A stretch of 16,196 bases of DNA from Bacteroidota bacterium. GTDB taxonomy: Bacteria; Bacteroidota; Bacteroidia; NS11-12g; UBA955. The notes below the pieces were generated by a model. The model did no database searches. It worked only from the letters and a program-made list of their open reading frames with translations, and was not told the origin of the DNA. Below are positions 14,376 to 16,196 of the stretch, in pieces. Each line of letters starts with the position of its first letter. Position 1 is the stretch's first letter. The stretch covers positions 1 to 16,196 of the forward strand of contig CANHGC010000007.1 of NCBI GenBank assembly GCA_947460045.1, in the 5' to 3' direction. The translations under genes and the position numbers were made by a program.

Positions 14376-14876
14376 ATGCAATATTCATTTAGGACAAAAA
14401 TTATTACCCTAAGTTCAATAGTCATTCTGTGGTTTGTATTCGGGACAATGATTATTTTGAGAGGTTCAATTGACAAGAATGAACTGAAAACTATAAAAGG
14501 GGACTTGGAAAATTTCGAAATAGTAACAATACCAGGAGGCAAAAGAAATATTGACGTTTTGGCTTTAAAAGTTTCTGGCTATACAGACAAAGCTGCACTT
14601 TACTTAAACTGTCGACAGGATTATGCTACGATAATGCAAAAATTCAACTCGAAACAAAAAATACAAATTTCATATCATGACCAAGGAAGAGTTGCAGCAG
14701 ATGGATATAATTTACATATCTATCAATTAGTATATGGTGACGAAATACTTATCAATTATGAAAACATAACTTCTACTAACAAAAGAGTAGGTAAAATTTT
14801 ATATTTGGTTGGGCTTGTATTCGGACTACCTATTATTTATGTATACAGACAAAAAAGAAAGAAAAGCGCCCTATAA
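14376..14876 (+). CDS. Hypothetical two-TM membrane protein
   Basis: 166 aa, not recognised. Two hydrophobic segments are visible, about 7-29 (TKIITLSSIVILWFVFGTMI and on) and 139-157 (GKILYLVGLVFGLPIIYVY), followed by a basic tail (RQKRKKSAL). The central roughly 110 residues are hydrophilic and beta-rich in appearance and contain one Cys (79). The basic tail argues for a cytoplasmic C-terminus, with the central domain probably on the outer side of the inner membrane. A+T content is clearly higher than in the housekeeping genes to the left. The TAA stop overlaps the first two bases of the downstream 122-bp repeat, as expected if gene and repeat form one mobile unit. It is probably a real gene given length, two TM segments and context. 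Confidence 0.7.
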   Translation: MQYSFRTKIITLSSIVILWFVFGTMIILRGSIDKNELKTIKGDLENFEIVTIPGGKRNIDVLALKVSGYTDKAALYLNCRQDYATIMQKFNSKQKIQISYHDQGRVAADGYNLHIYQLVYGDEILINYENITSTNKRVGKILYLVGLVFGLPIIYVYRQKRKKSAL

Positions 14877-14996
14877 CAGCACACACCCAAAAGGCGGGGC
14901 TCCTTGCTCCGCAGACAGTTTTGTGGTAGCCGATAATTCAGTTCTCCGCATCAACATTTGTGCTGAAAAGATCGCCCATCGCCAATCTGCAAAACG
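14875..14996 (+). repeat. 122-bp structured repeat, copy A (cassette-associated, attC-like)
   Basis: Aligns over its full length with 15612-15733. Ungapped identity counted by hand is about 72%, higher with a compensating one-base shift. Best conserved are the start AACAGCACA, AGGCGGGG, CTCCGC, GACA-TTTTGT, TTCAGTT-TCCGCATCAACATTTGTG and the end GCAAAACG. Copy A can fold. CAGCACA (14877-14883) pairs with TGTGCTG (14959-14965), and GCGGGG (14894-14899) pairs with CTCCGC (14944-14949). That makes two paired boxes separated by 10-nt and 9-nt spacers around a 44-nt centre. This is reminiscent of integron attC sites, but a standard R' core site (GTTRRRY) is not evident at the end. It lies between two accessory genes. 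Confidence 0.75.
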
Positions 14997-15010
14997 CTAG
15001 CACTCATATT

Positions 15011-15595
15011 ATGAAAAAGACCCTGCTTAACATATTAGTATTCATTTCGACAATTTCAATTTCGCTTGGACAATCAAGTTTTTACGACAGACTTGCGGAT
15101 TCAACTTTGACATTGACTAAACAAATTGTTCGTTATGACCCGACCTACTTTCAGCTTGACTATCCCAATGGTGATGTCCCTTCTGACAAAGGTGTATGCA
15201 CAGACGTAGTAATTAGAGTATACAGAAAACTTGGAATTGACTTACAAAAAGAGGTTCACGAGGACATGAAATACAACTTTTCAAAATATCCAAAAAATTG
15301 GGGACTTTCTCAACCTGACAAAAATATTGACCATAGAAGAGTTCCTAACTTAATGACATTTTTTACTAGACATGGAACAACAAAACCCATTACAACAAAC
15401 CCAAAGGACTTTTTACCTGGAGACATTGTATGTTGGAACCTTGGTGGTGCAGTGACACATATAGGAATTGTGGTAAAAAAGAAATCCGAAGACGGACAAA
15501 GGCATTTAATCGTTCACAATATTGGCGGTGGACAGGTCATCGAAGACTGTTTATTCAACTTCAAAATAATTGGACATTACAGATATGAAAAATGA
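15011..15595 (+). CDS. Secreted DUF1287 (NlpC/P60-like) protein
   Basis: 194 aa. The start at 15011 gives a clean signal peptide (MKKTLLNILVFISTISISLG|Q). The frame is open upstream to 14960, but that would start inside the 122-bp repeat. The body matches the DUF1287 family: YPNGDVPSDKGVCTDVVIRVYRKLGIDLQ with candidate catalytic Cys63, VHEDMKYNFSKYPKNWGL, NIDHRRVPNLMTFF, and PGDIVCWNLGGAVTHIGIVV with candidate His150, then VHNIGGG. A Salmonella DUF1287 protein (EcgA) has been reported as a peptidoglycan hydrolase, so an envelope or secreted peptidoglycan-cleaving role is plausible here by inference. The protein is complete. It is framed by the two 122-bp repeats, 14 nt after copy A and 16 nt before copy B, with no clear promoter of its own. 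Confidence 0.9.
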   Translation: MKKTLLNILVFISTISISLGQSSFYDRLADSTLTLTKQIVRYDPTYFQLDYPNGDVPSDKGVCTDVVIRVYRKLGIDLQKEVHEDMKYNFSKYPKNWGLSQPDKNIDHRRVPNLMTFFTRHGTTKPITTNPKDFLPGDIVCWNLGGAVTHIGIVVKKKSEDGQRHLIVHNIGGGQVIEDCLFNFKIIGHYRYEK

Positions 15596-15611
15596 GAGAA
15601 ATACGAATGGC

Positions 15612-15733
15612 AACAGCACATTGGCAATAGGCGGGGTTTCGTCTCCGCTTGACAATTTTGTAGTACCCGAAAGTTCAGTTATCCGCATCAACATTTGTGG
15701 AGAAAATCACCACTATCGGTTAGCGGCAAAACG
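15612..15733 (+). repeat. 122-bp structured repeat, copy B (cassette-associated, attC-like)
   Basis: Same length and direct orientation as copy A, about 737 bp away. GCGGGG (15631-15636) can pair with the nearby CTCCGC (15643-15648). The outer box pair seen in copy A is degraded here (TGTGGAG opposite CAGCACA). Its right end reads CGGTTAGCGGCAAAACG and continues into a hairpin GGCAAA-ACGTGA-TTTGCC (15725-15742). The next gene starts 27 nt later. Confidence 0.75.
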
Positions 15734-15760
15734 TGATTTGCCATTTCAAGACGTCACGGA

Positions 15761-16196
15761 ATGACACAAGAATATAACAAAAAAGAACAAATTTGGACGG
15801 CACTTTTTGTAGTGACACCTACTGTTATTTTTTCTAATTTTAGTGAATTTTTTGTTACTGACAGTTCGCATAATAAAATATTGTTCGCTGGAGTTTTTGG
15901 TGGACTTGGTGGACTATTAGGTTGGGGACTTTACTTTTTCGTAAAAAGCAAAACGACCATAATTCAAATCATTTCCTTGACTGCACTGTTAGGACTTGGG
16001 ATATCGACAATTTTATTTGCAAGTACTTTGACAAAACCAGAACTTACGACATGTGAAATTTGTGGTTATATGACGCTCAAATCGACCAGCACAGAATGCG
16101 ACTATTGTGGTAACACAACTTGGGACGAAAATAAAGGCAAGACAGAATTTACGACAAAACAAGATTGGATAAAAAGCGGACAAATATTTTGGTTTA
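15761..16196 (+). CDS. Hypothetical three-TM protein with zinc ribbon, 3'-truncated by window edge
   Basis: 145 codons from the ATG at 15761 to the window end with no stop, starting MTQEYNKKEQIWTALFVV. I do not recognise a family. Three hydrophobic segments are visible at about 12-32, 40-62 (Gly-rich, AGVFGGLGGLLGWGLYFF) and 66-90. Then comes a four-cysteine knuckle pair, Cys98-x2-Cys101 and Cys113-x2-Cys116 (CEIC...CDYCG), typical of a small zinc ribbon. The part after it (TWDENKGKTEF...) is hydrophilic and cut off. The gene is AT-rich and starts 27 nt after repeat copy B, so it is the third unit of the putative cassette series. Its remaining part and a possible third repeat would lie beyond the window. 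Confidence 0.75.
   Translation, partial: MTQEYNKKEQIWTALFVVTPTVIFSNFSEFFVTDSSHNKILFAGVFGGLGGLLGWGLYFFVKSKTTIIQIISLTALLGLGISTILFASTLTKPELTTCEICGYMTLKSTSTECDYCGNTTWDENKGKTEFTTKQDWIKSGQIFWF

Follow-up and report, generated by a model that had tools for sequence, protein, structure and literature searches.

Attachment sites and an insertion-less recombinase of a probable new integron variant in Bacteroidota, with a decaying member in a UBA955 draft genome

Contig CANHGC010000007.1 (C7) of assembly GCA_947460045.1, a 1.78-Mb draft genome (80% complete) of a Bacteroidota bacterium of the UBA955 lineage, carries near its right-hand end two 122-nt repeats, A and B, that alternate with three genes; the entire contig, 16196 bp, is the window analysed here. 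These repeats are very probably attC-type sites of integron cassettes, the enzyme that serves them being most likely a tyrosine recombinase without the insertion that defines the integron integrase IntI, and the window would represent a decaying member of the system. We read the family as a new integron variant that is widespread in Bacteroidota. The first-pass annotation of this DNA had suggested a Bacteroidota cassette array or a related, perhaps undescribed, recombination system; the family supports this suggestion, while the copies in the window turn out to be degenerate, and the words 'perhaps undescribed' were apt in that the recombinase lacks the insertion by which an IntI is defined.

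BLAST of copy A gave matches in 25 of 58 related genomes, and iterated profiles collected 94 copies in 41 sources picked from these matches; copies of one locus share a strand, except for a 44-nt inverted fragment in L043. A structural alignment of 66 copies (A1), with A and B included, reveals a common anatomy: an AAC...GTT core, stems of 10 bp and 6 bp separated by a 4/4 internal loop, and a variable middle. In A1, 89.6% of the cells are paired and 15 of 19 pairs show double changes; double-change cells number 238, as against 81 in shuffled alignments (0 of 500 shuffles reach 238), and pairing falls to 29–40% when the partner is slid by 1–3 columns. The covariance model built from A1, designated R1, recognizes sites at E ≤ 0.01 in 41 of the 58 relatives, with a maximum of 37 sites per genome (training copies match by construction). 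Such a search had been proposed by the first-pass annotation, and what it returns are arrays of gene-plus-site units whose sites lie on one strand. In a second set of 149 complete sites from loci L133–L232, which stood outside model building and from which 4 partial sites were excluded, AAC is present in 148 and GTT in 137. The family possesses the inverse core, core, imperfect palindrome, and variable middle of an integron attC site.

Circularization at G|TT requires that the nucleotides which follow GTT where a unit begins be complementary to those that precede AAC where the same unit ends. In the first set, 33 of 54 units match at 5 or more of 6 positions (maximum 10 in 2000 shuffles; 7 of 104 linear sites), and in the second set 79 of 110 cassettes do so (shuffles maximum 19; 17 of 149 linear sites), while a perfect run of at least 6 nt occurs in 72 of the 110 (maximum 8 in 2000 shuffles; 6 of 149 linear sites). 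The family thus shows the complementarity between cassette start and own attC inverse core that is expected of integrons. In the 72 of 107 usable pairs that have six perfect matches, pairing returns at positions 9–12 (72–86%, versus 30–57% in shuffles), and position 8 after GTT is an A in 72 of 72 and always unpaired; the outer arm consists of 12 nt after GTT that pair with the 12 nt before AAC, the position-8 A excepted. The units are also directional. All 118 sites found in 18 of 20 stretches from 16 genomes of a phylum-wide sample are one-stranded per locus (9 of these stretches were chosen because their contig was already listed with sites), and the longest open reading frame (ORF) lies on the array strand in 155 of the 165 cassettes with an ORF of at least 50 aa. 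The largest arrays hold 19 sites over ~37 kb in a closed genome and 20 over ~30 kb in another, and a Chryseobacterium plasmid carries an integrase and five sites.

Whole gene-plus-site units, which the first-pass annotation had proposed to compare among strains, are shared between genomes. A wide comparison found eight locus pairs that share most of a cassette, and four of these pairs begin to match at G|TT, with an inside identity of 91–99%: L028/L060 (92.9%, two genera), L220/L221 (91.5%, two classes by kinship labels), L026/L046 (99.1%), and L026/L221 (91.0%). Upstream of these four borders, the bases are unlike, or alike only as much as attC sites are. In the window's genus, the L026 cassette is preceded by an attC, whereas in L046 and L221 an attI-like sequence precedes it, in L221 directly after an integrase. 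As for cargo, Pfam matches were obtained for 94 cassette proteins, namely 93 from a set of 125 ORFs of 80–400 aa and one from the window. They spread over 73 families, none with more than 2 members; DNA methylases, Abi_2, S_4TM, PemK, and WapI are represented.

The sites also receive insertions of another kind. An element with ends like GTCAGGCTGTGAAAAAAC occurs twice in attC right cores of L222 (6727–8449 and 9178–10900); its transposase is, we presume, IS1182-like. A similar GTCARACTGTC end follows sites in L023, L033, L056, L058, L062, L103, and L230, and it looks as if elements of this type target these attC sites.

A tyrosine recombinase near the array was another expectation of the first-pass annotation, and one of ~300–400 aa, found through split TIGR02249 matches and bearing a C-terminal SPxD, adjoins many arrays, with none detectable in the window. 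All five array-side recombinases tested combine Phage_int_SAM_4 and Phage_integrase domains, and four of the five exceed the NF040815 cut-off. Their matches to TIGR02249, the profile for IntI with its additional domain, reach at most 207.5 bits (cut-off 265), and 0 of the 58 relatives have a match over that cut-off. The IntI insertion of ~41 residues is absent: residues 186–245 (60 residues) of the solved IntI 2a3v stand opposite 18 residues of the G026 enzyme. In other phyla, six IntI-type sequences have 96 residues between two motifs; the spacing is 61–62 in Xer proteins and 54–61 in those Bacteroidota enzymes where the pattern was found, since it missed the type encoded divergently from its array and was mis-anchored on L139 (273); a separate alignment places the divergent-type enzymes without the insertion as well. 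In a tree of 65 sequences, IntI proteins form one clade (100/100) and Xer proteins another (100/100), and 37 Bacteroidota enzymes fall outside both; the loci fetched for 29 of these 37 contain a site. A common clade of these enzymes and IntI is compatible with the data (approximately unbiased test, p = 0.154), being neither rejected nor shown. The separate Xer clade, together with the many sites per genome in many relatives, speaks against an identity with Xer/dif, for which no dif search was made.

Relatives of the enzyme also occur in broken form and outside the phylum. Split-frame integrases are present at L127:4489–5261 and L216:849–1870, and in the latter genome, G432 (L216–L217), 20 sites still follow, so that this integron has perhaps lost its enzyme recently. 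Insertion-less relatives in Spirochaetota, Bacillota, an archaeal metagenome-assembled genome, and alphaproteobacteria (L171, L177, L160, L161, L180, and L187) have no R1 site in the fetched stretch and may serve other site families. On two Acinetobacter plasmids (L234, NZ_CP040912.1; L235, NZ_CP044464.1), a C-terminal recombinase part, 53–59% identical to the query, immediately precedes tet(X5) or tet(X3); no attC-like site was detected beside these pieces at E ≤ 5. This piece is likely to be the gene called xerD in tet(X) papers.

Linkage of enzyme and sites was examined in 80 named loci, the top-ranking ones among 590 candidates, with the recombinase as the sole criterion of choice; 18 of them, all from Bacteroidota taxa, hold sites at E ≤ 0.1. 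Of the 35 model matches in these 18 loci, 34 are downstream on the integrase strand, the exception being a match in L153, where the enzyme clusters with those of the divergent type. The named hosts include Flavobacterium aciduliphilum, Algoriphagus ornithinivorans, Aquiflexum, Winogradskyella ursingii, and Alkalitalea saponilacus, and among the relatives' integrase loci 19 of 31 have sites. Two layouts are found, with the integrase running either in the same direction as the array or divergently (L107, L108, L109, L111, L113, L226, and L232). In 30 chosen same-direction loci with a site, a cassette start matching at 6 of 6 positions lies between integrase and first site in 27 (maximum 6 in 200 rounds with ends swapped between loci), and 22 of these starts are 37–151 nt after the integrase (maximum 5 in 200 rounds), next to the gene as an attI would be; a sequence like ATATAWnnA usually precedes them. 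A hairpin was considered as a general feature of attI and discarded, as it was nominally significant in only 6 of 38 attI-like sequences (L227 being mis-anchored).

The association extends to the phylum-wide sample of 395 genomes, in which the recombinase (E ≤ 1e-70) occurs in 114, a site (E ≤ 0.001) in 170, and both in 93 (p = 1.6e-23), the site counts being lower bounds because at most 8 candidates per genome were scored. These figures bear on the supposition that the arrays are ordinary integrons run by canonical IntI, beside which the insertion-less recombinase is a bystander. Such a supposition can appeal to a site anatomy, cassette-end complementarity, and attI layout that all follow the integron plan, and to the fact that other classes in the sample often have canonical IntI (over the cut-off in 105 of 395 genomes) and that 28 of 395 genomes carry both enzymes. 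With 107 IntI genomes taken at E ≤ 1e-60, however, the share of genomes with sites is 73 of 86 where the insertion-less enzyme is present alone, 20 of 28 where both are, 11 of 79 where canonical IntI is alone, and 66 of 202 where neither is, so that sites are enriched with the insertion-less enzyme (odds ratio 11.7) and depleted with IntI (0.44). Moreover, the relatives show sites in 41 of 58 genomes yet no IntI over the cut-off, only one genome of the same class is listed with IntI, and it is right behind the insertion-less gene that the attI-like site and the first cassette of the array are placed. A bystander role is accordingly unlikely.

A dispersed intergenic repeat, such as a repetitive extragenic palindrome, a miniature inverted-repeat transposable element, a terminator, or a regulatory hairpin, located between genes by chance, is very improbable. 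Covarying hairpins do occur in elements of this sort, and some genomes hold many scattered copies; but unit starts are complementary to the ends of their own units and not within the linear site, which refutes this reading for the family, and the four shared units begin to match at G|TT while strand is constant within arrays. Copies A and B alone may now be inert repeats. Hairpin ends and precise insertion borders would also suit a single-strand transposon of the insertion sequence IS200/IS605 kind that moves gene-plus-hairpin units, the recombinase being linked by chance. This explanation is scarcely credible, as the diverse cassette proteins include no transposase common to the units, the borders carry integron core sequences, and the attI-like site follows a tyrosine recombinase.

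Several observations weigh against the integron interpretation itself. No model match was obtained in 62 of the 80 named loci, nor in 12 of the relatives' 31 integrase loci, and in L120 the site lies upstream of the integrase, on the wrong side. No site at E ≤ 0.001 appears in 13 of the 86 genomes with the insertion-less enzyme only; conversely, sites are carried by the 66 genomes with neither enzyme and by 16 of 31 recombinase-free genomes among the 58 relatives, which indicates that sites outlive the recombinase or travel without it. Complementarity is lacking in 31 of 110 second-set cassettes, a failure explained in part by the divergent arrays of L226 and L232, in each of which an unvarying sequence, GTTCAGCAAGATT or GTTGAAGAAGAAT, comes after several of the sites. 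The cassettes shared by L028/L035, L103/L113, L231/L058, and L216/L217 match only from 32–568 nt inside, some within one genome. Finally, both cassettes of the window fail the complementarity test (3 of 6 matches in cassette 2; a best complementary start of 7 of 11 in cassette 1), and their stems are damaged.

In the window, copies A (14875–14996) and B (15612–15733) are identical at 88 of 122 positions (72%), whereas no other part of the window agrees with A at more than 49 of 122. BLAST of A against its own genome returns A and B only (B with 80% identity over 95 nt, E = 7.8e-17), R1 finds no copies in that genome beyond these two, and an Rfam scan of 13900–16196 at E ≤ 1 matched nothing. 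Site A (14868–15004, forward strand, as are all features here; 89 bits with R1, E = 3.9e-15) has its inverse core AAC at 14875–14877, a core at 14996–14998 that is mutated to GCT, and a variable middle between the stems; site B (15605–15741; 84 bits, E = 4.3e-14) has AAC at 15612–15614 and a core at 15733–15735 mutated to GTG, both copies being among the 66 training rows. Internal inverted repeats, noted at first sight, are strong in the family and poor in these two copies: pairing amounts to 5/10 + 5/6 in A and 5/10 + 3/6 in B, compared with family means of 8.7 + 5.4. Between 14868 and 15741, the left arm of B pairs with the right arm of A at 9 of 10 positions, versus 5 of 10 for either arm with its proper counterpart. 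Since 9% of randomly chosen pairs reach this level, there is only a hint that A and B may have exchanged arms in the conserved middle.

The genes around the repeats are single, on one strand, and mutually unrelated by Pfam. ORF1 (14376–14876, 166 aa), the gene of cassette 1, has no confident family and a membrane-bound appearance by eye, and its 3' end overlaps A. ORF2 (15011–15595, 194 aa), the gene of cassette 2, starts 14 nt past A and belongs to DUF1287 (PF06940, E = 1.1e-68), with matches to CHAP, Amidase_6, and NLPC_P60 all sub-threshold. ORF3 (15761–16196), the start of the cassette 3 gene, begins 27 nt past B and is truncated at the contig end, having no confident family and weak zinc-ribbon matches. 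The first-pass annotation was accurate on the equal length and three-quarters identity of the repeats, on the unrelated same-strand genes, and on their tight spacing; its first unit, which it began at 14376, must instead begin further left, where an attI-like site ends at 14340.

This attI-like site, GTTTCGTGTATAATCAA|GTT, occupies 14321–14340, with crossover expected at G14338|T14339. It resembles L108 over 24 nt (95.8%, E = 6.5e-6), and the motif adjoins divergent integrases in L108–L111, two of which (G008 and G012) are from the window's genus. The preceding 14205–14320 is a possible degenerate counterpart of the divergent-type integrase-attI flank, aligned with L108–L111 by eye (A3) without a significance test. 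An integrase remnant to the left of the attI-like site was rejected: tblastn with 19 integrases over 13601–14345 detected neither gene nor remnant, the best score of 21.6 bits falling inside the range of 20 shuffled controls (18.5–23.5). The one match listed for an integrase profile in the window's own genome scores 125 bits, in the Xer range, and with the draft 80% complete, loss of the integrase elsewhere in this genome is not proven. Cassette 1 extends from the TT of the attI-like core to the G of copy A (14339–14996), and as no complementarity exists between its ends GTTACCTGC and CCCTATAAC it must be rearranged or decayed. Cassette 2 (14997–15733, 737 nt) has the poorly matching ends GCTAGCACT and ATGGCAAC. 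The window is best described as a relic of a divergent-type integron, which retains its attI-like site together with two or three worn cassettes and is probably dead, as its integrase is undetectable and its crossover bases are mutated (GCT and GTG). Loci without a detected integrase supplied 37 copies that are lone or first in line, and upstream of 14 of these lies a start that matches at 10 or 11 of 11 positions (0 of 20 shuffles each), preceded in 11 of the 14 by an attI-like motif as judged by eye, so that integrase-less remnants like the window are common in the set examined.

The new arrays share with integrons, those of Treponema included, the cassette of a gene and one imperfect palindrome, the AAC/GTT cores, the G|TT borders, and an attI beside the integrase. 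Two layouts occur among them, the same-direction one reported for Treponema and the divergent one that other integrons typically show (PMC3607928). They differ in the short distance between the two recombinase motifs, and in a 12-nt outer arm with an unpaired position-8 A in place of the 7-nt cores GTTRRRY/RYYYAAC given in PMC3053210. The present enzymes probably fall in the 'Integron-like' subgroup of simple tyrosine recombinases as this is outlined in PMC8138268. That account calls the IntI insertion essential, and the additional domain is likewise held to be required for integron function (PMC8138268, PMC3053210), whereas the insertion-less members described here are tied to cassette arrays and attI-like sites. 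The new step would be precisely this tie to an attC family of their own, to attI-like sites, and to shared cassettes. NCBIfam NF040815 (recomb_XerA_Arch, 'site-specific tyrosine recombinase/integron integrase') covers most of the enzymes tested under a broad name, while the tree separates them from four Xer rows of the relatives. By its two R1 sites (R1 not being IntegronFinder's own attC model) and the lack of a detectable integrase, the window may correspond to a cluster of at least two attC sites lacking an integrase, or CALIN (IntegronFinder 2.0, PMC9024848), from which it differs in retaining an attI-like site. Integrons have been listed for Bacteroidota before (PMC8618304, PMC9668308), and PMC9024848 reports that earlier only integrases without cassettes, and then one complete integron, in Salinibacter ruber, were known in Bacteroidetes; in the present sample of 395 genomes, 170 have sites and 114 the recombinase. 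The 11 taxon-specific attC models presented in PMC8352920 include none for Bacteroidota. The open-licence literature, with subscription papers outside its scope, yielded no account of insertion-less integrases with cassette arrays.

A working model can be proposed in which the mobile cassette consists of a gene, sometimes more than one, and one site. The site would fold as a single strand, its AAC/GTT core and outer arm being followed by a short unpaired spacer, the 10-bp stem, the 4/4 loop, the 6-bp stem, and the variable middle. A tyrosine recombinase, most likely the insertion-less, NF040815-type enzyme ending in SPxD that lies beside arrays, would join G|TT of the folded cassette site either to another attC or to the attI-like site close to the gene of the enzyme, so that arrays would grow in one orientation. 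The sequences themselves show the site family with its covarying structure, the complementary cassette ends, the position of the attI-like site, the linkage to the integrase, and the sharing of cassettes; catalysis by this enzyme, the single-strand nature of its substrate, and the choice of strand are parts of the model suggested by sequence comparison. It is likely, on these grounds, that a second kind of integron is common in Bacteroidota, in which a recombinase devoid of the IntI domain recombines its own folded attC with a longer, mismatched outer arm. If so, the IntI domain is dispensable for cassette recombination, and cassette capture either evolved twice or acquired the domain later; the system makes the essentiality of the additional domain directly testable. 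It also suggests a route by which defence and other accessory genes may be exchanged between genera and even between classes.
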